A DNA stretch of 39,742 bases. Origin: Spirochaetales bacterium. GTDB lineage: Bacteria; Spirochaetota; Spirochaetia; Sphaerochaetales; Sphaerochaetaceae. This document shows, piece by piece, positions 7,359-22,608 of the stretch; the stretch's first letter is position 1, and each line of letters starts with the position of its first letter. A model generated the notes under the pieces. The model was given only the letters and a program-made list of their open reading frames with translations, ran no database searches and was not told the origin of the DNA. The position numbers and the translations under genes are program-made. The stretch lies in assembly GCA_018433865.1 (NCBI GenBank), contig JAHDQJ010000055.1, positions 1 through 39,742 on the forward strand, written 5' to 3'.

Positions 7359-8713
7359 ATGGAAGGCTTGACAGTAGAATACAAAAGAGAACTTTCAGAC
7401 GATTTCGAAAAAGAAGTTGTAGCCTTCTTGAATTCTTTGGGAGGAGAACTGTTCATCGGCGTGAACGATGATGGAGTTATCAAGGGTGTACAAGATCCAG
7501 ATCGGTTGTCCCTCGCGATCATAGACCGAATCAAGAATAATATACTGCCCGCGACATTGGGCCTTTTCAACGTCGAAGTAAAACAGGACGATGGCAATTC
7601 GTATATCCGCATCATCATCGCACAAGGTTTGGAAAAGCCCTACTATTTGAAAAAGTACGGGATGAGCGTAAAAGGTTGTTATACCCGGATTGGTTCGCAA
7701 TCTTCTCCAATGACTCACAAACTGATAGCTGAATTGAGTTCGCATCGGGTTGCGCATACGCTAACAAATGTTGTTTCCCCGAATCAGACCTCACATTCAC
7801 TCAGTTGAGAATCTATTACGCTGAAAAAGGGTTTGATGCCAGTAGCGAATTCTTTCTGAGAAATCTTGGTCTTTATACCGAAGATGATCGTTATAATTAT
7901 GCTGCCTATCTCATGGCGGACAACAATGGCAACTCGGTGAAAGTAGCCAGATTCAGGGGAACACAAAAACTTGATATCTTGGAGCGCAATGAATTTGGTC
8001 GGGGATGTCTGATTAAATCAGCTTATCAGGTTCTCGATAAACTGGAAGTCGTCAATACCACAGTGGTAAGAGTTGGGGGAGATGCTGCCAGAAGAGAATT
8101 CCGACTTATTGATAAGGATGCCATGCGTGAAGCGGTTCTCAATGCAATAATCCACAATGACTACATCAATGGTTCATATCCTGTATTCGAGATCTATGAC
8201 GACCGAATTGAAATTACTTCCACCGGTGGACTTCCGATTGGCCTGACTGAGGACGAATTTTTCAAAGGACGATCACATCCTCGGAACAGGGAGCTCATGA
8301 GAATATTTTCGGATATGGACTTGTGTGAGCAGCTCGGATCGGGAATGAAGAAGATTTTGAAAGCCTACTCCAAGGACATTTTCGATATCTCAGAACACTT
8401 CATCTCAGTACGTTTCCCTTACAACGAGGAAGCAGTTAGAATCCTTGATGAACAAGCAGCTGGCGGTGTAAGTGGCGGTGTAAGTGGCGGTGTAAGTGGC
8501 GGTGTAAACGATGTTGAAATGCACCTTTCAGAAAATGCAATACGTGTCCTACAGATGATCAGGAATGATGGAACCTTGACACAGAAACAGATAGCCGAGC
8601 GATCATCGCTTTCAATCAGGTCTGTACAAAGAGCAATGAGAGAGTTGAAAGACAATAAGATCATTGCACGGGAAGGATCGGATAAAAGCGGAATATATAT
8701 ATATTTAGGCTGA
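7359..8713 (+). pseudogene. AlbA_2/RecG-like ATP-binding transcriptional regulator, frameshifted
   Basis: Two frames together make one protein of about 450 residues. The first (7359-7808) is an AlbA_2 (Schlafen-type) DNA-binding domain, with 'EYKREL' at its start and a 'GCYTRIGS' core ending. The second (7805-8713) continues with 'LRIYYAEKG', then an HATPase_c_4 domain ('EAVLNAIIHNDY' and 'SGGLP'-like ITSTGGLPIG, 'EQLGSGM'), a GGVS repeat linker and a C-terminal winged helix-turn-helix. Reading LTFTQLRIYY across the junction requires one extra G near 7787 (CAGAC instead of CAGGAC), so a single-base deletion or a sequencing error splits the gene. Such proteins act as regulators, often near antitoxin or defence genes; the target here is unknown. 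Composition is more AT-rich than the neighbouring tail module. Confidence 0.75.
8462..8509 (+). repeat. Four tandem 12-base repeats coding GGVS
   Basis: GGCGGTGTAAGT occurs three times at 8462, 8474 and 8486; a fourth copy at 8498 ends AAC. They encode the flexible linker between the ATPase-like domain and the C-terminal winged helix of the AlbA_2 protein. Exact tandem copies are prone to slippage, which would alter linker length by four residues at a time. Confidence 0.9.
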
Positions 8714-9125: not shown

Positions 9126-9473
9126 CTATTTGATGGAATAGTCCTTCAGGATCTTTATCAATTCGTTCATGGATCTCATGACTATGGCTGTTTCTTGAGG
9201 GTTGCAGTCCAATAGAGATTTCAGCAGGAGAGTGTTGCCCGACTCAGCGGTCTCCTCCAAGCTGTCTTCCAGCAACACTTCGCTGGACACCCTGAGTACA
9301 TTCGCAATACGAACCAAAGTCTCAAGGCCCAACCGTCTTGTCCCCGTTTCCAGATAACTGAGGTAGGTTCTGCTCACTGGGATTCGGGAGGCGAATTCCT
9401 CTTGGGATAAATCCAGTTGCAGCCTGTAAAATCTTATTCTTTTGCCGATACTTGCATAGTCGATTCCACTCAC
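9126..9473 (-). CDS. XRE-family (Cro/CI-type) transcriptional regulator
   Basis: 115 residues. The start is GTG 9471-9473 on the reverse strand, six bases after a strong AAGGAGG; the upstream frame is open but has no better start. Residues ~5-65 form a HTH_3 domain (IGKRIRFYRLQLDLSQEEFA, then a recognition helix near 'SRTYLSYLETG' and 'ETLVRIANVL'). The C-terminal ~45 residues are a leucine-rich helix that may dimerise. It diverges from the ATPase gene, and two palindromes lie between them, so it is likely the repressor of the recombinase operon (inference). Confidence 0.85.
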   Translation of the reverse strand: MSGIDYASIGKRIRFYRLQLDLSQEEFASRIPVSRTYLSYLETGTRRLGLETLVRIANVLRVSSEVLLEDSLEETAESGNTLLLKSLLDCNPQETAIVMRSMNELIKILKDYSIK

Positions 9474-9543
9474 AACACACCTCCTTGTATCACTTGAGAA
9501 TCCGCAAGGTGTCGCAATGGTAATCTCAGTACCAAGACATGGG

Positions 9544-9560
9544 CAAGGAATGTGTCCTTG
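9544..9560. repeat. Short inverted repeat in the divergent leader
   Basis: CAAGGA (9544-9549) and TCCTTG (9555-9560) are perfect 6-base arms around five bases. It lies about 70 bases upstream of the XRE start and may be a further regulator site or chance. Confidence 0.3.
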
Positions 9561-9625
9561 ATCTTCAAGAATGCAAGAATGCAATGGAATGGGGAGACCC
9601 ATACGGTGCACCCTTGCATGGTTCC

Positions 9626-9672
9626 GCAAACTGCCAGTTTGCATTCCAACTGCACTGCAAACCTGCGGTTTG
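9626..9672. promoter_or_regulatory. Twin palindromic operators between XRE repressor and ATPase operon
   Basis: GCAAACTGCCAGTTTGC at 9626-9642 is a perfect palindrome around C9634. CAAACC-TGC-GGTTTG at 9658-9672 is a second one centred at 9665. The centres are 31 bases apart, close to three helical turns, as expected for two repressor dimers on one face of DNA. Both share the half-site CAAACY. They lie about 60 and 90 bases before the ATPase start codon. Binding by the adjacent XRE protein is inference. Confidence 0.65.
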
Positions 9673-9734
9673 TGGAGCATTTCGCGGAAATGTCATAAGC
9701 TTTTTTTGATCCATCTATAAAAGGGAGGTCCCTG

Positions 9735-10727
9735 TTGCCCGCTGAATCAAAGGATGTCCTGATGCGGTATAGCGACATCAATGCCAACTCCGTGTCCTGG
9801 CTATGGAAGCCCTTCATAGCCTATGGGAAAATCACCACGATACAAGGCGATCCGGGTGAAGGGAAATCCTCCCTGATGCTCAACATTGCCGCGGCAATCT
9901 CAAGCGGAGGCACCTTGCCGGATGGTTCACGATGCTCGCAAGCCTTGAATGTCATCTACCAATGCTCTGAGGACGGAGCGGCGGACACCATCAAGCCGCG
10001 TCTTCTTGCCGAGCATGCGGACTGCAACAGGATCGCCTTCATCAACGAAGATTCGGGGTGCTTTTCCCTGGATGACGAAAAACTCGTGTTTGCGATCTCC
10101 GAGTTCAAGGCGAAGCTTGTGGTGATAGATCCCATCCAAGCCTATCTTGGTGACGCGGACCTGTCCTACGTCGGTGGCATGAGAAGGCTCCTGCATCGCC
10201 TGAGCCTTTGGGCGAGCGCCTATGGCTGTGCGATAGTCCTCGTGGGGCATCTCAACAAGAATGAGGGATCGAAGGGATTGTACAGGGGTTTGGGCAGCAT
10301 CGATGTCGTTGCGGCAGCGCGAAGCGTGCTGCAAGTGGATCATCTTGATGCCCGACCCGATATCAAGCGTGTCCGCCAGATCAAGAACAATCTCTCGACG
10401 AAAGGAGCCGATGTATATTTCAGGATACTCCCCCAAGGTCTTGCTTGGATTGACCATGAAAGCGAAGAAAGACCAGAGGATATCGATTCGCCTGAAGCTG
10501 GGGACATGGTCATGAGCAAGCAGGAAGCAGGGATAGAGGTTCTCAGGTTCTTGCTCGGGGAGGCCCCCATGAAGGCATGCGATGTCATCGGGCTGTTTGA
10601 AAAAAGGGGCATCAGCCGCAGGACGTTGCTCATCTCGAAAAAGATTCTGGGAGTCCAATCCAGCAAGCGAGCCGGGCAATGGTTCTGGGAACTCCCTGCA
10701 ACCAGGAGCGGCCATAGAGATGAATGA
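9735..10727 (+). CDS. RepA-like RecA-fold ATPase (AAA_25)
   Basis: 330 residues, starting at TTG 9735 with AGGGAGG upstream; the first ATG, at 9762, has no such site. Walker A is GDPGEGKS at residues 38-45, Walker B is LVVID at 128-132, and 'LVGHLNK' at 169-175 matches the sensor region of RepA/DnaB-like RecA-fold ATPases. The C-terminal ~60 residues carry a winged-helix-like segment ending 'QWFWEL'. It is smaller than a full replicative helicase and has no primase domain. It overlaps the first recombinase gene by eight bases (ATGAATGA), so the two are co-translated. Possible jobs are initiation of element replication or remodelling of recombination complexes. Confidence 0.8.
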   Translation: MPAESKDVLMRYSDINANSVSWLWKPFIAYGKITTIQGDPGEGKSSLMLNIAAAISSGGTLPDGSRCSQALNVIYQCSEDGAADTIKPRLLAEHADCNRIAFINEDSGCFSLDDEKLVFAISEFKAKLVVIDPIQAYLGDADLSYVGGMRRLLHRLSLWASAYGCAIVLVGHLNKNEGSKGLYRGLGSIDVVAAARSVLQVDHLDARPDIKRVRQIKNNLSTKGADVYFRILPQGLAWIDHESEERPEDIDSPEAGDMVMSKQEAGIEVLRFLLGEAPMKACDVIGLFEKRGISRRTLLISKKILGVQSSKRAGQWFWELPATRSGHRDE

Positions 10728-12522
10728 CAGGCAACTTATTAATAATCCTGCGGGTAACGGAACTCCGTTGAAGATCATCCCTGCCAGGGAGAAGGATGAC
10801 ATAAATTCAGCGAACAGGGCCTACAGAGCATGCGCCTATTGCCGTGTATCCACGGATGGAGAGATGCAGCAGTCCTCTTTCGAATTGCAGAAACTTCATT
10901 ATGAAAGACTTGCGCAATCCCATCCCAATTGGCACCTGCTGAAGATTTTTGCCGATGAAGGCATATCCGGCACTTCCGTGAAAAAAAGGAAAGAATTCAA
11001 TGAGATGATAGACGCATGCACGAGAGGGGAATACGATCTCATCCTCACCAAGTCGGTCTCAAGGTTCGCAAGGAACCTCGTCGACTGCATCACCATCGTC
11101 AGGAAGCTGAAAGCCCAGATACCCCCGGTGGGAGTGTTCTTCGAGACTGACAATCTCTTTACCCTCTCGGAGGACTCCGAGCTGAAACTTGCGATTCTTT
11201 CCACCGTTGCCCAGGGTGAATCCGAGAAGAAAAGCGAGAGCATGAACTGGTCGCTCAAGGAACGTTTCCGAAACGGCAGGTTGCTGATGCCTGAACTGCT
11301 TGGATATGCCCGGGAGAGGGATGCAATCGGTAGGTATGTGAAGGATGCGCCGCTTGTCATAGTCGAATCGGAAGCAAGGATCGTGAGATTCATTTTCAAC
11401 GCATTCACAGCCGAGTACCCGATGGAGAGCATCGTCGAAATGCTAAACGAGATGCAGGTGCCGACCAAGACGGGTAAAAGCAGCTGGAACTTGTCATCGA
11501 TCAGATACATCCTTGGCAACGAACGGTACTGCGGCAAGGTCCTGACCTGGAAGACGTTCACCGCTGATGTGTTCGGGCATACGAAACGGAACAATAACAA
11601 CAATGAGAGGGAACAATGCCTGTATCCGGACAGGCATGAGGCGATCATCACGGTCGGTCAATTCGAAGCGGCCCAGTTGCTCTTGTCAAACCTAGAGAAA
11701 GGGATCCATGGATATTCTGCCGCCCATGTCATCGATGCCGGCATGTTCCGCGGATATGTCCCGGTGAATCACAAGTGGATGAATGACAATCCGAATGTAT
11801 ATTTCGAGGCATCCAACAGCGTTGAGCAACAGGCAAAAAGCCAACAGATCAGAAAGGATCGCCTCTGCCGGTTCAATCTTGCGGGTTTCCAAGTCGTCCG
11901 GGGGCATTTCCTTACCGCTCGGCAGGAGTGCCCTTGCATCACGGTCACCGAGAGCAGGCTCAGCTTCAACACCGTCTGCGTCCGCAAGTTCGCGGGGGTG
12001 TCGTACATACAGCTGTTGATACATCCAGCTGAACGCAAGGTCGCCATCCGCCCTTGTTCGGAACATGACATCCATAGCATACGGTGGCGGGTGGATTCAG
12101 ATAAGCCAATCCAGATGAAAAGCATCAACACGCCATACTTCTCAAACGCGCTCTATAAGATTTTGGAATGGAACCCCGATTACCAGTATCACATCAGGGG
12201 AACGTGGTTGTGCCAGGACCACGAGGAGATAATCTTGTTTGACATCTCGAAGGCGATATCCGCCACGTATGTCGACTGTGAAACTGAGGAGGGGAAACGA
12301 AGAAGGGTCCTCCTTTGCCCCGAGGAATGGAATGATTCATTCGGGGAGGATTTCTACGATTTCTGCATCCAGAACAGTTTTTATTATATACGCTCGGGTT
12401 CAAGTTGGAATACCCAGGCAAAAGGCGTCGCCGCCTACAAGCCTGTCCAGCCAGTCATCATGACCGAGAAAGAACTCATGGCTGAAATGCATAAGATAAA
12501 GGCGGGAGTCAATAATGAATGA
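10720..12522 (+). CDS. Large serine recombinase LSR1 with novel C-terminal domain
   Basis: 600 residues from ATG 10720, which overlaps the ATPase stop. The resolvase domain has catalytic Ser44 in YCRVS, with conserved 'DEGISGTS' and 'SVSRFARN' further on. A Recombinase domain follows to about residue 290. Unlike LSR2 and LSR3, there is no CxxC zinc ribbon. Instead residues ~387-600 form a domain starting LAGFQV, with IQLLIHP, an IRPC motif, EWNPDYQY and ILFDIS; the same features appear in the three following genes. An Asn-rich stretch lies near residue 285. It probably catalyses integration or excision, with the C-terminal domain replacing or adding DNA or partner contacts (inference). Confidence 0.85.
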   Translation: MNDRQLINNPAGNGTPLKIIPAREKDDINSANRAYRACAYCRVSTDGEMQQSSFELQKLHYERLAQSHPNWHLLKIFADEGISGTSVKKRKEFNEMIDACTRGEYDLILTKSVSRFARNLVDCITIVRKLKAQIPPVGVFFETDNLFTLSEDSELKLAILSTVAQGESEKKSESMNWSLKERFRNGRLLMPELLGYARERDAIGRYVKDAPLVIVESEARIVRFIFNAFTAEYPMESIVEMLNEMQVPTKTGKSSWNLSSIRYILGNERYCGKVLTWKTFTADVFGHTKRNNNNNEREQCLYPDRHEAIITVGQFEAAQLLLSNLEKGIHGYSAAHVIDAGMFRGYVPVNHKWMNDNPNVYFEASNSVEQQAKSQQIRKDRLCRFNLAGFQVVRGHFLTARQECPCITVTESRLSFNTVCVRKFAGVSYIQLLIHPAERKVAIRPCSEHDIHSIRWRVDSDKPIQMKSINTPYFSNALYKILEWNPDYQYHIRGTWLCQDHEEIILFDISKAISATYVDCETEEGKRRRVLLCPEEWNDSFGEDFYDFCIQNSFYYIRSGSSWNTQAKGVAAYKPVQPVIMTEKELMAEMHKIKAGVNNE

Positions 12523-13114
12523 AGATCCGGGCCCTCTTTTCCAGGGGATCACGTCACCAGATGAAATGGAAGAACAGGAAATGGTGGATCTGGCAGGCTT
12601 CCAGGTCACGAAAGCCGAACTTTTTGCCCATTCGAGGGAGCCGGCGATTACGGTCTGGGGAGATAAGATCAAGTTCAACATGGCCTGTCTCAGAAGGTTC
12701 CCGGGTGCCACACATATCCAGCTGCTGATCCATCCTGATCAGAAACGGCTTATCATCAGGCCTTGCGAGCCCGACGCTCCGGACTCGCTCCGTTGGTCAA
12801 GCGGAGGCGGGGATAAGGAAATGAAGAACAGGGACATGATCTGCAAGCTCTTTGCAGCCAGGCTCTTTGATCTCATGCAGTGGGATAGCCATTATCGGTA
12901 CAAGATGCTGGGCAAACCGGCCGTATCGAATGGCGAGGTGCTCTATCTCTTCAGGCTTTCTGATTTCGAACTATTCTGCCAGATCGGGAAATCAAAGAAA
13001 AGCAGGGCTTATCTTCCTGAAGATTGGAGGAATTACTTCGGCGTACCGGTCGAAGATCATGAGGAGACTTATAAAATTGATTTGGCCGATGGTTATATCA
13101 CAACTCGGTCCTGA
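12515..13114 (+). CDS. Stand-alone LSR1 C-terminal-type protein, copy B
   Basis: 199 residues; ATG 12515 overlaps the LSR1 stop by eight bases (ATGAATGA). From residue ~25 it aligns with the tail of LSR1: DLAGFQV, then ITVW, HIQLLIHP, IIRPC, LRW, a QWDSHYRYK segment and LYLFRLSD. The end (PEDWRNYFG) also matches the PEEWNDSFG of LSR1. There is no resolvase domain or catalytic Ser, so it is probably a non-catalytic subunit. Similar proteins exist, as I recall, in Firmicutes annotated simply as 'integrase', which I could not check. Confidence 0.7.
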   Translation: MNEDPGPLFQGITSPDEMEEQEMVDLAGFQVTKAELFAHSREPAITVWGDKIKFNMACLRRFPGATHIQLLIHPDQKRLIIRPCEPDAPDSLRWSSGGGDKEMKNRDMICKLFAARLFDLMQWDSHYRYKMLGKPAVSNGEVLYLFRLSDFELFCQIGKSKKSRAYLPEDWRNYFGVPVEDHEETYKIDLADGYITTRS

Positions 13115-13124
13115 GGAGGAAGTC

Positions 13125-13574
13125 ATGATCAAGAATGAGACATTGATACAGAACATCACGCTTGAGGGTTTCCAGGTCGTCCAGGGACAACTGTTCAAGA
13201 ATGAACGCAGTCCGGTGATGACGGTCTATAAGAACGAGGTGGCATTCTCGAAGGAAGCCCATGCAGCCCTGAACAACTGCGCCGCAATCCAAATCCTGGT
13301 AAATGCTGATAAGAAAACCATCCTCATCATGCCATCGGCCTCAACGGATGAAAACGCGATTGTCTGGGAACGACAGCTGAAAGACACATATGTTCCCAGG
13401 TTCCGATGTCCCGGATTGACAAGACAACTATATGCACAATGGGATTTGAACATCAGATACCGATACAAGACCGATGGCCGCTTGGTGCGTTGCGAACGGA
13501 AGGTGGGACTCCTTTTTGATTTCAATGATGCCAAGCCGTTTGACGGATTGGTTGCGGTGAGAGAAGATGAGTGA
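13125..13574 (+). CDS. Stand-alone LSR1 C-terminal-type protein, copy C
   Basis: 149 residues from ATG 13125, behind GAGGAGGA; the frame is open further upstream but overlaps copy B. It keeps the LEGFQVVQGQLF start, MTVY, AIQILVN with KKTILIMP, the IVW turn, a QWDLNIRYRY segment and LLFDFND, but lacks the final PE(D/E)W section of copy B. It is a shorter and more diverged member of the same family. Confidence 0.65.
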   Translation: MIKNETLIQNITLEGFQVVQGQLFKNERSPVMTVYKNEVAFSKEAHAALNNCAAIQILVNADKKTILIMPSASTDENAIVWERQLKDTYVPRFRCPGLTRQLYAQWDLNIRYRYKTDGRLVRCERKVGLLFDFNDAKPFDGLVAVREDE

Positions 13575-13950
13575 AAAAACCCACATGTCATTCTATCTTG
13601 CCCACCATACCTTCCGTGTCTTCACTGATGCGGTGAGACGCATCGGCTGTCCCGGGCATGTACGTTTCTTGATGAATCCGGATGATCTTCTCATGGCGAT
13701 GGAATCACATGACAAGAAAGAGCTGACTTCCTTCAAGGTTCCACATAATTTGTTTACTGACACCAAGGATACCAGCATGAGAATCCACAGCAAACGCTTT
13801 TGTCAGCTCCTGGCCGACAAGATGGGCTGGGATATGACAAAGTCATACCGAGTTCCCGGTGAGATTTTCCCAAGGCAGCAGGTCGTCATATTCGATCTGT
13901 CACAAGCTGTTGCATTACCCAAGATGGAACCTGATTCCCGCACGCAATAA
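13567..13950 (+). CDS. Stand-alone LSR1 C-terminal-type protein, copy D (diverged)
   Basis: 127 residues; ATG 13567 overlaps copy C by eight bases (ATGAGTGA). The N-terminal LAGFQV motif is weak or absent. VRFLMNP corresponds to IQLLIHP, and the end keeps MGWDMTKSYRVPG followed by VVIFDLSQA, which match the WD..YR..G and IFDLS pattern of the other copies. The relation is therefore inferred from motif order and operon position rather than from overall identity. Confidence 0.55.
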   Translation: MSEKTHMSFYLAHHTFRVFTDAVRRIGCPGHVRFLMNPDDLLMAMESHDKKELTSFKVPHNLFTDTKDTSMRIHSKRFCQLLADKMGWDMTKSYRVPGEIFPRQQVVIFDLSQAVALPKMEPDSRTQ

Positions 13951-14817: not shown

Positions 14818-15999
14818 TTACCCATCATCCTCGAGTTTTGTGCCGATCTTGACGAGCCAGTATGGGATCAAGACACATCCGTTGAGAAACATGAGAGTGC
14901 CAGCTCGGGTTATCAAAGGGGTGGAGAATATCTTCCATGACCAGTACCGATCTGACAAATCCCTGATGATCCCCCCGTATTTGTTGATCTCCCTTATCTC
15001 GGCCGGGGCGTCCTTGGTGACCGCCCGCAACAGGACCTCCGCAGTTTCCCTCTTGTTGCAGCGCTCGAGCAGGTCCTGGAGATCAAGCCGATACCACGCA
15101 TCATCCCTGAATTCCCCGGTGGCGGTCTCTATGAGGACATCCATCACCAGCTCGCGTTCCTTCGGGATGTGCCAAGCCCTGACCCTATGGACGCTCTCCG
15201 GCTTTCGCTCATCGGGAGCCGGATCCTTATTTGAACAAATGGTGTGCGTTTCAGGAAAGAGAGCGTTGTATGTCATCACCACCCTTACCCCATGATGTGC
15301 GATGCGAAAGCCTTCCCGGGTCGACAGGTTGAGCAGTGCCGGTTCATACCGTTGCCCGAAGGATCGCACCAACACAGGAGTGACATCCCAGATTTTCCGA
15401 TGCATGCGGACCAATCGATCCGCAAGATCTCCGTACCACGTATCCCCGGCATGGTTATACAGGTCCGATGCGTAGAAAAAATCGGCGTCAGCATAATACC
15501 ATTGCACTTTCTCGGGCAGCTCGTACCAGGATGATCTCCGTCCTTCATTGAACGCGCGGGCAATGGCATCGAGCATCGTCATTTGTTCACGGTCCTTTAC
15601 CCTGAGCAGCATGGCCGTCCCCTGGTAGACTGTCGCTTGCCAACAGTCGTCAGGATCGAACTCATGCTCCCGCTCGACAGCCCAGGACAGCAGCACCGGG
15701 ACCCCAAACCGTCGCTCTTCGTCCAGACACCAGCGGACGAACTCGACGGTCGTCCTGCTCGCATCGGGCATGCGTTCCGAACCCGGACGGATCCGGTACA
15801 ACCGGAGCCGGGGGACATGCCCAGGATCCCACGTTCCGTCCTGGAGGATGAGCGTCTTGCCGTATCTGCTGCGACCGACGATGTCGATCGCCATGGCCTG
15901 TCCATCCAAGGCCTCTGCCGACTCGACGCTCCAGAACATATTATCGTCGAAATGGCTCACGTATTCTTCGTTGGACCATGTCATTCCAGGTAGTAACAT
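14818..15999 (-). CDS. Hypothetical cargo protein 1
   Basis: 393 residues. ATG at 15997-15999 is preceded by GGAGGCGCG and is preferred to the earlier start, which would run deep into the neighbouring gene. The protein is rich in Trp, Asp and Arg, with several WYY/YYAD segments in the middle and a hydrophobic C-terminal segment ('LMFLNGCVLIPYWLVKIG') that could be a membrane helix or buried strand. No conserved enzyme motif was recognised. It overlaps the end of the upstream gene by 19 bases, so the two form one operon. Confidence 0.6.
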   Translation of the reverse strand: MLLPGMTWSNEEYVSHFDDNMFWSVESAEALDGQAMAIDIVGRSRYGKTLILQDGTWDPGHVPRLRLYRIRPGSERMPDASRTTVEFVRWCLDEERRFGVPVLLSWAVEREHEFDPDDCWQATVYQGTAMLLRVKDREQMTMLDAIARAFNEGRRSSWYELPEKVQWYYADADFFYASDLYNHAGDTWYGDLADRLVRMHRKIWDVTPVLVRSFGQRYEPALLNLSTREGFRIAHHGVRVVMTYNALFPETHTICSNKDPAPDERKPESVHRVRAWHIPKERELVMDVLIETATGEFRDDAWYRLDLQDLLERCNKRETAEVLLRAVTKDAPAEIREINKYGGIIRDLSDRYWSWKIFSTPLITRAGTLMFLNGCVLIPYWLVKIGTKLEDDG

Positions 16000-17087
16000 G
16001 ACGCGCCTCCATGGATCCCTACCGCTTCGTCGAGCCAGTCGAAGAAGTATTTGAGTGACGGCAGGATTACTTGCCATTCCTTTCCCTGCCTCACGTGCAC
16101 ATCCGAACATGCATTGCTGTTGAAGAACCAGAGCCAGGAATCGTCGATCGCGTGATACGGATATCGGGGCTTGCACATCTTCTCGAAGAAGCTCTCCCAA
16201 CTGTCATGGACCTTCATCCCATGCCAGAACTCGATCAGCTTGTGCCACCCGGCCTTGCGGACTTCCGGCTCCCAGGAATGCGTATCCCACCCCTCGTTCG
16301 CCTTCCAGCACAACGGCGTGATGATATCCATGACCGGGGCATACCCATAGATAGACATCAGGCAATCCCGGCTTTCCGAGGCAGTTGCCTTCGGCATCGG
16401 CTGATCCAAGCCAGGTATCACGATGAAATCCACCATCGAGAACCTTGCCAGCCGTGGCTCACGCACGAGATCCGGATGATGACTGTACCTCCACGTCGGA
16501 TCCATCACGGTCAGGCTCATCCATGTCAGGTCCAGGCATCCTTTGTAGCCATCCTTCGAGAACCCGATCGCCAATGCCTTGCACCGTTCGTCATCAAAGG
16601 ATTCCAATTGGAGCCGTTCGGGCAGGTGCTCGATGGGAGCCGCATGCCGCACCACGCAACTCTCAAGGAAATGCAGCTCGCTGATGCGCAAATCCACCAC
16701 TTCGTTATAGTAGAACGCATGCTCATTTTCCCCGTGTGTTTCCGTATGGATGTACAGGAGGCATTCCTCCAACAGCGGTGTCATATGGCCTTCCAACTTG
16801 GGAACCCAGAGGAGCGGGTAGCACGTTTCCTGATTATGGCCGCGCCACCACCCCTTTGGCTCCATCAGCAGAAGTCCGTCGTCCAAGAACATGTATTCGA
16901 GTGGCATAGATTCGAAATCAGGATCCCCGACCAGGTACACAAGATCTATCCTGACCCACACGCGGCCGTGGGCTCTCATGACCCGGCCGATCAGATGCAC
17001 ATCCTCACACAGGAACCGGGCGACGGCATGGGTGGCGTGGAAGATCCTCCACCCTTGTTGCCTGGGCACAGAGATTGCGTTTTTCAT
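15981..17087 (-). CDS. Hypothetical cargo protein 2
   Basis: 368 residues, starting at ATG 17085-17087 behind GAGGAGGA. The body is Trp-, His- and acid-rich, like cargo protein 1 in style, with no signal peptide, membrane helix or known catalytic motif. It is the first gene of a two-gene operon. The two proteins may act together; a defence or modification role would be typical of cargo in such elements, but nothing in the sequence proves it. Confidence 0.6.
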   Translation of the reverse strand: MKNAISVPRQQGWRIFHATHAVARFLCEDVHLIGRVMRAHGRVWVRIDLVYLVGDPDFESMPLEYMFLDDGLLLMEPKGWWRGHNQETCYPLLWVPKLEGHMTPLLEECLLYIHTETHGENEHAFYYNEVVDLRISELHFLESCVVRHAAPIEHLPERLQLESFDDERCKALAIGFSKDGYKGCLDLTWMSLTVMDPTWRYSHHPDLVREPRLARFSMVDFIVIPGLDQPMPKATASESRDCLMSIYGYAPVMDIITPLCWKANEGWDTHSWEPEVRKAGWHKLIEFWHGMKVHDSWESFFEKMCKPRYPYHAIDDSWLWFFNSNACSDVHVRQGKEWQVILPSLKYFFDWLDEAVGIHGGASCYYLE

Positions 17088-17240
17088 GAAAAAGTCCTCC
17101 TCAAATGTGAGGAGAACTAGGAGGAGTCATCTTGTTTGCGGAAGACAACCATGGATGAACATTACCACGGGTTTCGAGGATTGACCAGAGAAAAGTGTTC
17201 TTGGTTGATAGTTCCTCTAGTTGGTTATTTCGGAAAGCTC

Positions 17241-17801
17241 CTAACGCGGACGAACCTCGATGTGGGTCACATAGTAATTGTTCGTTTCTCCGTATCTTGT
17301 GCCCTCCTTGATCCGATAGCCCCAGAACCACTCATCCCCATACCCTGTCAGATTATAGCTATTTTGCGCACGAAATATTAGTGGAGCTTTCATGGGAAGC
17401 TTCCTGTTGATTTCGACAGTACCCTGGCGTGAATGATATCTGATGGTTCTTAACACAGGATAATATACGGACTTCGGAGGAACTTGAGTTGGGTCAGTAC
17501 CCGACATCTCTTGCAGAACTTTTGTAAGCTGACGCAACTCACTGAATGTCGTACTTGCTGGCGTCCCCTGCTCTAAAACCGGATAATCCTCAGTTCTGGA
17601 TTTTGCTATATAAAAAGAGATGGAATATTTTTGGTCAAATATTCTCGTAAATAATGCATTTTTCAAAAGCAACGATTCGTAGAAATAGTGACCGTCGTTC
17701 ACTCTGTCAAATTCATCCATGATCTCAACAGAACTATCCACGGTCCTTACATCAACCTCAAGATACTGCTTGCGCTGCATTGCTTTAAATACTTTACCCA
17801 T
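17241..17801 (-). CDS. Hypothetical cargo protein 3
   Basis: 186 residues from ATG 17799-17801, with AGGAAG upstream. It is more AT-rich than cargo genes 1 and 2 and separated from them by about 150 bases, so it was probably acquired separately. The sequence has many Tyr, Thr and Arg residues and a beta-rich C-terminus; no family was recognised. Confidence 0.5.
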   Translation of the reverse strand: MGKVFKAMQRKQYLEVDVRTVDSSVEIMDEFDRVNDGHYFYESLLLKNALFTRIFDQKYSISFYIAKSRTEDYPVLEQGTPASTTFSELRQLTKVLQEMSGTDPTQVPPKSVYYPVLRTIRYHSRQGTVEINRKLPMKAPLIFRAQNSYNLTGYGDEWFWGYRIKEGTRYGETNNYYVTHIEVRPR

Positions 17802-18273
17802 CAAACTCTTCCTATAACATGTTGTTGTCATATTGGGCGCGTATGAGCCACATAACAATTAGCGGATAATTCCTCTTCTTTCCTTTGTACCAGAGTAGAA
17901 CACCACGATGTCCTCAAGATCAAAAATATCTCTAGTCCCCTCTCAAAATTCCATTCTTCATTCAGTCTCATTCGCATGGCTAGACCTTACTGGCAATCCA
18001 ATACGAAAAGATTTTTTTACGTTAACACGAACCCCTCCCATTCTCAATTAAGAGATGCGAAGGCTATCAAAAGGGTACCACGGCTCGGTCAACACAATCT
18101 CTTCAAATTTCTATCGGTCAAATCCCATCTCGCATCCGGAAGGTATCGAGGCACCTAGAAGCCTTCAAGCGGGATCACCTACCCAAGACGCTATCTGCTC
18201 CGATTCCACCAAGGATGAGGAGAGCTTTGTGCATCGAGGGTACGGTTTTCCGGCAATAAGTATGGAGGACCCG
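17802..18273. other. AT-rich intergenic region between cargo and right operon
   Basis: This stretch of about 470 bases separates the reverse-strand cargo from the forward right operon. I saw no gene here; a promoter for the SHOCT-like gene must lie within it or just upstream, but no convincing -35/-10 pair was found. Confidence 0.4.
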
Positions 18274-19053: not shown

Positions 19054-19285
19054 GCTGTTCCCTTCGGAGCTCGACTACCAAGGTGCGCTCTCCCTCGCCG
19101 AAGGCATGCGCCGATCGGGATTGCTGAACGACGATGAATTGTCCAAAGTCCGAAGTCTGCTGGTCGAAGCCTACGACCCTCCCCTCGGCAGCCTGTTCGC
19201 CATCCCTGGCGGAACCGGGGATGGAGAAACACATACACCGAACCAACACATCCAGGAGGATCTCGATGCAACACGCACGATGTGA
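19043..19285 (+). CDS. SHOCT-like small protein, copy 2
   Basis: 80 residues from ATG 19043 (GGGGAGGCA upstream). 'ELDYQGALSLAEGMRRSGLLNDDEL' and 'YDPPLGSLFA' correspond to the helix pair and KYRPPIG tail of copy 1, so the two are paralogues flanking the HTH/zinc gene. It overlaps the start of LSR2 by 20 bases, indicating coupled translation. Confidence 0.6.
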   Translation: MDNELFPSELDYQGALSLAEGMRRSGLLNDDELSKVRSLLVEAYDPPLGSLFAIPGGTGDGETHTPNQHIQEDLDATRTM

Positions 19286-20699
19286 CCAGCATGATCGGGA
19301 TGCGATCCTTGGCAACCGCGACGCTTTGGGTGCGATGACAGGTCATTCAGAGCAAGTCACATCCCGAAACCCCAAGGTCATCAAGCTCGAACGGCCCGTC
19401 GCGTCCAAGCCATCGAGGATGCGGGTGGCCGCCTATGCCCGCGTCTCGGTCGACTCGGATGAGTTGATGCACTCCCTGGCAGCCCAGGTCAGCCACTACA
19501 GCGCGCACATCCAGACAAATCCCTCATGGGAGTACGCGGGGGTGTATGCGGATGCGGGGATCTCGGGTACCGCGACCAGGAACCGCATCGAGTTCCAACG
19601 CCTCATCGCCGATTGTGAGAAGGGGATGGTTGACATCATCCTCACCAAGTCCATCAGTCGCTTCGCCCGCAACACCGTCGACCTGCTCAAGACTGTCAGG
19701 CACCTGAGGGAGCGCAACATCTCAGTACGCTTTGAACGGGAGAACCTCGATTCCCTCTCGCCCGACGGGGAGCTCATGCTTTCGATCCTTGCCTCGTACG
19801 CGCAAGAGGAGAGCCTATCGATCAGCGAGAACGTCAAGTGGGGCATCCGCAAGCGATTCTCCCAAGGACGCTTCCTCGCCTACGCCATCTACGGCTACCG
19901 ATGGGTCGAGGACCATTTCGAGATCATCGGGGAGGAGGCCGAGGCGGTGCGGTTCATGTACCGCTCCTTCGCCGACGGCATGACGCTCACCGAGATCTCC
20001 GATGCCTTGGTCAAGCGGGGAATCTTCAACCGCAGGGGACAGCCCTTCGGAAAGTCCTCGATACTGCGGATCCTCGATCAGGAGAAATACCGTGGGTTCA
20101 GCGTCCTGCAGCGTACCTACGTGGAAGACCATATCACCCACCGGAAGAAGATGAACACAGGAGTGCTTCCGCGGTTCGAGGTGCAGGGAACCCATCCGGT
20201 GATCATCGACGAAGAATTGCACGAAAAGGTTGAAGCCGAACGCGAACGCCGGCGCCAAGCGGGTGCGGCCAGGTGGCGTCGTGCCACCTGCTTCACCGGC
20301 AAGATCGCCTGCGGCCATTGTGGCAGCACGTTCACCTATACCCCGAATACCTGGAGCGGAGAACTGACGCAGTTCCAGCAAGGCCACTACCAGTGTTCCC
20401 GTAAGCGCAAACACGGCGCTAAGTCCTGCCCCGCCAAGAGCTTGCCGGTCTATACCCTGCGGCAGGTATGCTGCTCACTTCTTGGTCCGATCATCGGAAC
20501 CTCTGATTGTGACCCATTCGAGGAGGCATGGATCGACAACCATGTCGATCATATCATAGCGTTTGCAGGCACCCTGGAGTTCCATCTCACGACCAAAGAG
20601 GTCCTCACCACACCCTGGAAGAACACCGCCAAGCGTGATATCTGGGCTCATCGGCGTGCAGTGGCACAGCAACATATCAACAGCGAGGTACTATCATGA
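19266..20699 (+). CDS. Large serine recombinase LSR2
   Basis: 477 residues from ATG 19266, behind CAGGAGGA. The catalytic Ser61 lies in YARVS, with DAGISGTAT and SISRFARNT following, then a Recombinase domain and a zinc ribbon with C349, C352, C377 and C388. It belongs to the second recombinase operon and is followed by LSR3 with a 4-base overlap. The product probably acts in integration or excision, perhaps as a partner of LSR3. It is shorter than LSR3 after the zinc ribbon and lacks its long coiled coil. Confidence 0.85.
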   Translation: MQHARCDQHDRDAILGNRDALGAMTGHSEQVTSRNPKVIKLERPVASKPSRMRVAAYARVSVDSDELMHSLAAQVSHYSAHIQTNPSWEYAGVYADAGISGTATRNRIEFQRLIADCEKGMVDIILTKSISRFARNTVDLLKTVRHLRERNISVRFERENLDSLSPDGELMLSILASYAQEESLSISENVKWGIRKRFSQGRFLAYAIYGYRWVEDHFEIIGEEAEAVRFMYRSFADGMTLTEISDALVKRGIFNRRGQPFGKSSILRILDQEKYRGFSVLQRTYVEDHITHRKKMNTGVLPRFEVQGTHPVIIDEELHEKVEAERERRRQAGAARWRRATCFTGKIACGHCGSTFTYTPNTWSGELTQFQQGHYQCSRKRKHGAKSCPAKSLPVYTLRQVCCSLLGPIIGTSDCDPFEEAWIDNHVDHIIAFAGTLEFHLTTKEVLTTPWKNTAKRDIWAHRRAVAQQHINSEVLS

Positions 20700-22276
20700 G
20701 AGAAGTGCGCGTAATCCCGGCGACCCGGGACCTGTCGACAGGTCAACAGACCAACCACTTCACACCCAAGCGCCGGGTCGCAGGCTATGCCCGCGTATCC
20801 ACCGACAGCGAGGACCAGTACGCATCGTACGAGGCCCAGGTGGATTACTACACCACCATGATCAAGGCGAACGCCGAGTGGGAATTCGTCGGCATCTACA
20901 CCGACGAAGGCATCAGCGGCACCAGCACCAACAGGCGCGAAGGCTTCAAGCGCATGATCGCCGATGCGCTCGCGGGCAAGATCGACCTGATTGTCACCAA
21001 GAGCGTCAGCCGCTTCGCACGCAACACCGTGGACAGCCTGCAGACCATCCGCAAGCTCAAGGAACACAAGGTGGAGGTCTATTTCGAGAAGGAATCAATA
21101 AAAACCTTTGACAGCAAGGGGGAACTCTTGATAACGATCATGAGCTCGCTCGCCCAGGAGGAATCGCGCTCCCTCTCGGAGAATGTCAAATGGGGTCTGC
21201 GCAAGCGTTTTGCCGATGGACAGGTCTCCGTGTGTTACACCCGATTCCTTGGATACGACAAAGGGACTGAGGGCAACCTGGTGGTGAATGCCGAACAGGC
21301 GAAGCTGGTGAGGTACATCTTTTCTTTGTACCTACAAGGCCTGACGTTCCACGGGATCGCAAAGCGCCTGGAAAGCGAAGGGCACACCACCGTGACCGGC
21401 AAGAGTGTATGGCATTCCTCCACCATCCAGCAGGTGCTCACCAATGTGAAGTACAAGGGCGATGCATTGTTGCAGAAGTATTACATCGCTGACTTCCTTA
21501 CCAAGAAGCCGGTGCTGAACTCCGGGGAGGTTCCCCAGTATTATGTCCAGGACAACCATGAGGCGATCATCAAATCCGAGGTGTTCGACCTGGTGCAGAA
21601 GGAGATTGCGCATCGCAAGGAGCATGTGGAGGTGACAAAGGGGGCTCACATCTTTTCCGGTCGGATCCGGTGTGGCCACTGCGGTGGTACCTACGGGCCC
21701 AAGGTATGGCATTCCAAGGATCGATACCGCAAGGTGATCTGGCAGTGCAATGAGAAATATGTCGACCGGTACCACAAGTGCGCTTCCCCCACCCTGACCG
21801 AGACCGAGTTGAAGGATTCGTTTGTCAGGGCAGTGAACATGCTGATGAGTGACAAGGACAGGATCATCAGGAGCTTCGAGGCGATCAAGGACAGGGTCTT
21901 CGATACTTCGGAGGATAAGGCGAAGCTAAGAAACCTCGAGGCGGAACGATTGGAGGTGATCGCTCTCGTGGATCAGCTCACGGCGGAAAATGCCTCGACC
22001 GCCATGGACCAGGAGGTGTATCGGAAACGCTATGAGAGGTTATCGGATCGTTACCACGAGGTTGAAACCCATATCTCAGGGATGAGGCATGCGATTCAGG
22101 ATCGCCGGTATCGCAAGACCAGGACCGAGCTGTTCCTCAAGAGTTTAAGAAAGCAGGAAGAGGTGGTGACCGAATTCTCCGAGCATCTCTGGCACTCGCT
22201 TGCCGATCATGCCGAGGTGCATGGGAAAGAAGATATCCGGTTCACGTTCATGAATGGGATGGAGATTCAAATCTAA
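20696..22276 (+). CDS. Large serine recombinase LSR3
   Basis: 526 residues from ATG 20696, overlapping the LSR2 stop (ATGA). Catalytic Ser35 lies in YARVS; 'DEGISGTSTN' and 'SVSRFARNT' are intact. A Recombinase domain follows, then a zinc ribbon (C326, C329, C351, C362) and a long charged coiled coil (residues ~390-480). This full set of domains fits the classical integrase-type serine recombinases. It is the last gene of the element, and its stop lies only ~30 bases from the radC remnant, as expected for an integrase next to its attachment site (inference). Confidence 0.88.
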   Translation: MREVRVIPATRDLSTGQQTNHFTPKRRVAGYARVSTDSEDQYASYEAQVDYYTTMIKANAEWEFVGIYTDEGISGTSTNRREGFKRMIADALAGKIDLIVTKSVSRFARNTVDSLQTIRKLKEHKVEVYFEKESIKTFDSKGELLITIMSSLAQEESRSLSENVKWGLRKRFADGQVSVCYTRFLGYDKGTEGNLVVNAEQAKLVRYIFSLYLQGLTFHGIAKRLESEGHTTVTGKSVWHSSTIQQVLTNVKYKGDALLQKYYIADFLTKKPVLNSGEVPQYYVQDNHEAIIKSEVFDLVQKEIAHRKEHVEVTKGAHIFSGRIRCGHCGGTYGPKVWHSKDRYRKVIWQCNEKYVDRYHKCASPTLTETELKDSFVRAVNMLMSDKDRIIRSFEAIKDRVFDTSEDKAKLRNLEAERLEVIALVDQLTAENASTAMDQEVYRKRYERLSDRYHEVETHISGMRHAIQDRRYRKTRTELFLKSLRKQEEVVTEFSEHLWHSLADHAEVHGKEDIRFTFMNGMEIQI

Positions 22277-22302: not shown

Positions 22303-22386
22303 ACATTATCCAAGCAGGCGAAATCCTCGGCAGCAGGGTTACCGGACCATCTTATCTTCAGCGACGGATTGTTCCGCTCGATGCTG
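22303..22386 (+). pseudogene. radC: radC (JAB/MPN-like) C-terminal remnant 1
   Basis: Read in two frames, the segment gives AGEILG (from 22314) and DHLIFSDGLFRSML (from 22345), the C-terminal signature of RadC. A frameshift lies between ~22331 and 22345, and everything N-terminal is missing. It matches the other radC remnant at 35049-35270, which has AGELLGIQVLDHLIFSD. RadC proteins are commonly found near mobile elements. The remnant ends where the G-tract starts. Confidence 0.65.
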
Positions 22387-22397
22387 GGGGGGGGGGG
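22386..22397. repeat. Twelve-G homopolymer
   Basis: A run of 12 consecutive G bases directly follows the radC remnant (after ATGCTG). Homopolymers of this length are hot spots for slippage and also for sequencing error. No intact gene is switched by it in this window. Confidence 0.9.
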
Positions 22398-22608
22398 AAT
22401 GGGTAGACCTAAGATTATCGCAAGAAATATTATTGTTTCTGTTTACTTCTAACTTCGTTGAGAAAAGGTAATCGGATTGTTTTTTAATGAAATTTGGCCA
22501 CGGTTGTTTGGATAGTCTTGCCCGAACATGTCAGAAGTACTCTGTATCAACGATTTCCGAGGATCATTTGGCAATCCCATCCAGAAGGGGACAACATGAG
22601 CTTTCTTA

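Follow-up and report, generated by a model that had tools for sequence, protein, structure and literature searches.

A large serine recombinase with a tail domain that recurs as free-standing neighbouring genes in a three-recombinase element of a Spirochaetales bacterium

Large serine recombinases (LSRs) are prized because a lone protein integrates DNA unidirectionally and free of helpers. The classical single enzymes (phiC31, Bxb1, A118, TndX) carry a zinc ribbon and a coiled coil, the former being usual, though not universal, in the family. LSRs are also found as serine-integrase triplets, which have been described in nine streptococcal integrative and conjugative elements (ICEs). There, all three genes share one orientation and cluster at the end of the element, and insertion is marked by tiny direct repeats of 2-8 bp; since 10 of 42 serine integrases lack the zinc ribbon, one ribbon-less member per triplet is possible (Ambroset et al. 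2016, PMC4701971). In the gin element of Bacillus cereus, GirC acts as integrase with GirX as its recombination directionality factor (RDF), the roles of GirA and GirB are unknown, and one of the three LSRs suffices for integration (PMC5595907). The locus described here lies in a 39,742-nucleotide contig of a Spirochaetales bacterium (JAHDQJ010000055.1 of assembly GCA_018433865.1; this whole stretch is called the window), which carries three LSRs. One of them, LSR1, ends in an unusual domain, which recurs in free form as the three genes that follow, B, C and D.

Compared with classical single LSRs, LSR1 has similar catalytic and recombinase domains but a different tail domain, of which free copies exist in addition. 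Like the streptococcal elements, the window has three LSRs, but two of them (LSR2 and LSR3, each with all three domains by Pfam) are paired, and LSR1 stands apart with the free domain copies, an arrangement also seen in related phages, in many of which LSR1 is on the other strand from the pair. The gin element similarly has an LSR pair in an operon and a third LSR apart, while neither a shared domain nor free copies are reported in the accessible part of its description (PMC5595907). Three-LSR elements are known, and the LSR1 tail domain with its free copies is the component that appears to be new.

LSR1 is recognizable as an LSR by its Resolvase catalytic domain (PF00239, E 8.5e-26) and its Recombinase DNA-binding domain (PF07508, E 9.8e-21), whereas the zinc ribbon PF13408 gives no match at E up to 1. 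The same holds for the 62 LSR1 homologues scanned, all of which have the first two domains and none a zinc ribbon (E 0.01), and the catalytic residues and motifs are invariant in the alignment. In the structural model, residues 27-328 resemble LSR structures (Z up to 17; Z 11.4 for the LSR-DNA complex 4kis), but none of the structure matches listed covers the tail as a domain. The view of the preliminary description that LSR1 ends in an unusual domain instead of a zinc ribbon was thus correct, the tail core lying at about residues 383-520 and being followed by a C-terminal extension.

The LSR1 tail, B, C and D are homologous. With tblastn in the own genome, B matches the LSR1 tail with E 3e-25 and 34% identity, and C with E 6e-10; no copy besides B, the LSR1 tail and C appears in this search, and single sequences are too insensitive for D because of its divergence. 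Profiles do reach the latter: D of the window is matched by a D-free tail profile (E 1.3e-11), by the B profile (1e-7) and by the C profile (2e-4), and a B-D profile-profile comparison yields E 1e-10, or 2e-16 in a local-alignment comparison. The claim that three stand-alone genes share the LSR1 tail domain is in this way borne out for B, C and D, although two details of the motifs first listed need amending. C does not keep IQLLIHP, having IQILVNA in its place, and D, said to retain only the last motifs, is wholly without the N-terminal L-(A/E)-GFQV segment but has not lost parts of the core. Neither Pfam, NCBIfam nor PHROGs has a model for the family, B or tail profiles have no sequence match among PDB chains, a collection that includes integrase-RDF complexes, and the open full-text literature (subscription papers being outside the search) holds no description of the domain or its free copies. 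In three annotated phage loci with an intact LSR1-B-D set (L005-L007), each of the three proteins is labelled 'hypothetical protein'. Some other candidate families were set aside: DUF6128, to which some B proteins have weak matches, is located in unrelated Clostridia reading frames of 286-496 aa, and neither phrog_1799 (E 0.01-0.13 for the window proteins, at best 1e-4 in relatives) nor matches to unnamed viral structures added a function.

The AlphaFold model of B, based on a 71-row alignment, reaches a core pLDDT above 90 over most of residues 41-155, and shows the order b-b-a-b-b, short strands, a-b-b. The model of LSR1 residues 406-508 has the same order of elements. Both contain beta-beta-alpha-beta-beta twice, as the two units of each MraZ chain do. 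Foldseek finds no confident match in the PDB, and its sliding-clamp matches were rejected for TM-scores near 0.1 and low probability. The best match by a second structure aligner is MraZ (9r4j_D, Z 3.4, 86 residues, rmsd 3.4), covering the whole domain, followed by rows at about Z 2, mainly C2 domains. In profile comparisons, C, D and four-family profiles match MazE, aligned as expected for the AbrB unit, with E 0.03-0.05, while most decoys score 0.25-0.5; as a calibration, the known pair MazE-MraZ does no better in the same comparison, at 0.033. MraZ and AbrB-MazE resemble the modelled tail domain in how strands and helices are ordered and spaced, with two units per chain in MraZ, but differ in giving no significant sequence match and a weak structural one, and we know of no link between these proteins and recombinases. 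The tail domain probably has an AbrB/MraZ-like fold, a DNA-binding kind.

Searches with B and B alignments found relatives in 80 loci of GTDB genomes (nearly all from gut or rumen Clostridia), 80 of IMG/VR, 23 phage records and one Subdoligranulum plasmid. Those phage records that were inspected belong to the 'Ca. Heliusvirales', whose founding group has been described from a metabolic-syndrome cohort as a widespread family of gut phages (PMC9226167). In about 160 related loci the genes overlap and are arranged as LSR1-B-(C)-D. By profile classification this order is LSR1-B-D in phages and LSR1-B-C-D in elements of the window's type, to which C is restricted among the loci classified. The exceptions fall at contig ends, in loci with a damaged LSR1 gene and in a single genome, L244, with B-D-L1 (L1 being LSR1). 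This relative, a member of the same taxonomic family as the window, has R R R ... B D L1 in full (R, canonical LSR), which indicates that the LSR1-B-D association outlasts reordering. One or two further LSRs often lie within the same stretch as the LSR1 set, in orders such as 'R R A L1 B C D' (A, ATPase), or 'L1 B D' with an LSR pair on the opposite strand; the ATPase gene is equivalently placed in 32 related loci. The domain occurs exactly three times, in a single cluster, in each of eight whole Clostridia genomes of relatives and four times, also in a single cluster, in the own genome, and a tail-profile search of these nine genomes found it nowhere outside the LSR1 cluster. In the sample of the window's phylum, 2 of 393 genomes have it, the own genome included.

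The set also behaves as an evolutionary unit. The median gap from the LSR1 stop to B is -8 nt, with 146 of 155 loci within 30 nt, and the junctions ATPase-LSR1, B-C and C-D are just as close. A maximum-likelihood tree built from 142 domains resolves the tails (T), B, C and D into one group each (support 94/92 for T, 82/52 for B, 99/95 for C and 100/99 for D), and the T, B and D groups each contain both phage and window-type members. The duplications consequently predate the split between phages and window-type elements, and copies this old that have been kept apart are unlikely to be redundant. Distances within phages correlate at r 0.90 between the LSR1 catalytic part and B, 0.82 between the catalytic part and the tail, and 0.94 between the two canonical LSRs, but at only 0.47-0.49 between the LSR1 catalytic part and either canonical LSR. 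The corresponding values in window-type elements are 0.72, 0.89, 0.94 and 0.64-0.65, all of them raw and uncorrected for common ancestry or linkage. From the diversification of the pair alongside a conserved LSR1-B-D, it seems that the pair tracks the host target and that LSR1-B-D has a common task, which could be a shared step of integration and excision or an independent one.

In some relatives the tail is a gene of its own. In Oscillospiraceae phage PV036431 (L008) and two IMG/VR contigs (L237, L238), a free tail domain (146-161 aa) begins six bases after a tail-less LSR; the tail-less LSR is 400 aa long in the phage and 405 aa in L237, and L238 covers the gene end only. Other copies of the domain (B or D) were not found in the three stretches.

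Two further variations at the LSR1 gene have been observed. The phage loci L138 (7258-8007) and L074 (7470-8072) have, before LSR1, a short Resolvase-domain gene in which YxRVST is replaced by YIRYFNQ and YIRYFNS, respectively, which, judging from this replacement, is probably a catalytically dead recombinase paralogue. L139, L140 and L142 resemble these two loci in gene order, and the pattern R-L1-B-D is found in further loci. In L017, LSR1 is broken (9253-9965): upstream, no catalytic part was found, and the tail has a segment of about 270 bp inverted between perfect 10-bp inverted repeats (9632-9641 and 9904-9913).

Upstream of LSR1, most phage-type loci (63) contain a palindrome of about 44 bp, with half-sites near AAATAAACCAnAGGT and a constant 10-nt middle. 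It usually lies 20-120 bp before the LSR1 start, and in several loci 170-750 bp before it, mostly with an intervening gene such as the dead-resolvase gene. There is one palindrome per locus, with matches elsewhere in the same DNA almost absent; L132, L155 and L159 have a weaker second copy about 940 bp upstream of the first. The halves co-vary, with 98 two-sided changes against 44 in shuffles and a covariation score of 0.424 against 0.178, which collapses on a shift by one column. A gene for an XRE regulator neighbours 46 of 47 distinct sites, so the palindrome may be its operator, but in 36 loci tested no further copy of the box precedes the XRE gene. The variation of the site correlates equally with the distances of XRE (0.47), tail (0.47) and D (0.45), and its binder may be either LSR1-B-D or the XRE regulator. 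A role as attP in phages was rejected, as the palindrome is whole in a chromosomal prophage (L044). The imperfect palindrome of the window differs from the phage-type box despite its equivalent position, and matches in 17 of 22 positions in the best arms, compared with a mean of 13.5 and a maximum of 16 after shuffling; it may be a candidate operator or recombinase site.

The features of the locus are collected in the table below. The open reading frame (ORF) of C opens earlier, at 12852, by mechanical call, and the real start of the XRE regulator is probably inside its ORF. Homology with a sister genome (G001 contig 77) resumes at 22455, 179 bp past LSR3, which confines the element's right edge to the interval from 22276 to this point. 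The left side is rearranged relative to the same genome; the left end was not located, and no repeat longer than 10 bp that could serve as attachment core was found between the flanks tested. A run of 12 G lies near the right edge, at about 22385-22400. In L091-L093, L096 and L098, a conserved non-coding block (GCACCCC...GGAGTGCAGATGCGCCTTGGTGGCC) directly past the stop of the last LSR is a candidate attachment site. Between D and the LSR pair, at 14818-17858 on the minus strand, three ORFs (460, 368 and 205 aa) have no Pfam match and may be element cargo. At 7359-8713, an ORF with a Schlafen AlbA_2 domain overlaps by 4 bp a following RecG-C-terminal-like/HTH ORF, and the two could be separate genes or one regulator split by a frameshift.

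Features of the LSR1 locus and of the LSR pair, in window coordinates
Feature	Position	Strand	Basis and remarks
XRE (HTH_3) regulator, divergent from LSR1 operon	9126..9680	-	Pfam
Imperfect palindrome, 26-nt arms around 2 nt, in gap between XRE gene and operon	9623..9676	.	17/22 in best arms
AAA_25 (RepA/KaiC-like) ATPase	9735..10727	+	Pfam; first gene of operon, overlapping LSR1 start
LSR1, large serine recombinase: Resolvase res. 38-187, Recombinase res. 217-323, without zinc ribbon	10720..12522	+	Pfam
LSR1 tail domain core (about res. 383-523), with B, C and D as homologues	11866..12288	+	Sequence searches, model
B, free tail-domain copy, 199 aa	12515..13114	+	8-bp overlap with LSR1; sequence searches
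C, free tail-domain copy, 149 aa	13125..13574	+	Sequence searches
D, free copy of greatest divergence, 127 aa, core domain alone	13567..13950	+	8-bp overlap with C; profile searches
LSR2, canonical LSR with zinc ribbon, partner of LSR3	19134..20699	+	Pfam; triplet in relatives
LSR3, canonical LSR with zinc ribbon, at right edge of element	20696..22276	+	Pfam; sister-genome comparison

B, C and D may be DNA-binding or assembly subunits of LSR1 within a serine-integrase triplet, a reading to which we give a probability of about one half. The locus would be the LSR1-B-C-D half of a three-recombinase module, in which LSR1 would keep intact catalytic motifs but have its zinc-ribbon part replaced by the two-unit beta-beta-alpha-beta-beta domain, with B, C and D as free copies of long standing, each conserved in its own right, whose genes form an overlapping or adjoining series with LSR1. 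Tail and free copies would co-assemble into a mixed DNA-binding platform, in the way AbrB/MraZ-type proteins oligomerise, either at the ends of the element or at a site beside the operon. The platform would position LSR1 and supply the site recognition and synapsis that are otherwise roles of the zinc ribbon and coiled coil, while site-specific strand exchange, in integration as in excision, would fall to the two canonical LSRs. The homology, the gene order, the absence of the domain elsewhere in the genomes searched, the co-evolution and the separate-tail records were established here; protein contacts, DNA binding, a role in integration and the class of fold are inferred. Of the multi-subunit recombinase proposed in the preliminary description, which did not recognize LSR1 as part of a triplet, the conserved, co-inherited unit of a catalytic subunit and free copies of its extra domain has stood. 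Several points weigh against the subunit reading: the MraZ structure match is weak and the profile similarity to the AbrB/MraZ families (PF02381/PF04014) non-significant, coupling and co-evolution are equally expected of a co-regulated set without contact, as linked genes co-evolve anyway, the separate-tail phages without detected B or D imply that not every element requires the full set of free copies, and B, C and two D genes of L017 remain open despite the broken LSR1. A stronger version, where LSR1 is obligately multi-subunit and active only with B, (C) and D, an MraZ-like hetero-oligomeric DNA-wrapping platform replaces zinc ribbon, coiled coil and RDF in recognizing the target, in synapsis and in controlling direction, and the LSR pair is heteromeric as well, is a tentative possibility.

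Assembly or DNA binding is favored over a classical directionality factor because B overlaps the LSR1 stop in most loci, while known LSR directionality factors are expressed separately from the integrase. B, C and/or D acting as RDFs that bind LSR1, or the other two LSRs, through the tail-like domain and switch integration to excision would fit small, element-borne genes that adjoin an LSR and are homologous to a recombinase domain, and three-LSR gin elements do have an RDF, GirX, which acts on GirC (PMC5595907). Such a role is nonetheless unlikely, given that two to three different copies are retained simultaneously and that the B and tail profiles match none of the PDB chains, integrase-RDF complexes among them. 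It is rather improbable, too, that the free copies are AbrB/MraZ-like transcription regulators of the operon, derived from the tail or the reverse, with the upstream palindrome as their operator. The MraZ-like fold order, the twofold, symmetrically covarying site shortly before the operon and the lack of a box copy before the neighbouring XRE gene speak for this, but the same domain is fused to a catalytic subunit, the XRE gene beside nearly every site is a simpler regulator, and three non-redundant regulators would be unusual for one operon. The palindrome also bears on the idea of LSR1-B-D as a separate recombination system (for instance, for multimer resolution or inversion at its own palindrome), with integration left to the LSR pair alone. 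LSR1-B-D and the pair evolve as two units, and the one conserved palindrome per phage-type locus is not an attL/attR hybrid, being intact also in the chromosomal prophage; gin needs only one of its three LSRs for integration (PMC5595907). Yet four phage records annotated as complete genomes retain exactly three LSRs together, and no tyrosine integrase was found in them, the site may be an XRE operator, and a second site for inversion was not found in most loci, so this separate system seems improbable as well.

The LSR1 set has stayed together in well over 100 phages and elements, a pattern that suggests a many-part machine for DNA integration of a kind not described before. If B, C and D are indeed subunits of LSR1, large serine recombinases can be heteromeric, the 'extra' recombinases of triplet elements would have a function, and a new handle on the control of LSR direction would become available.

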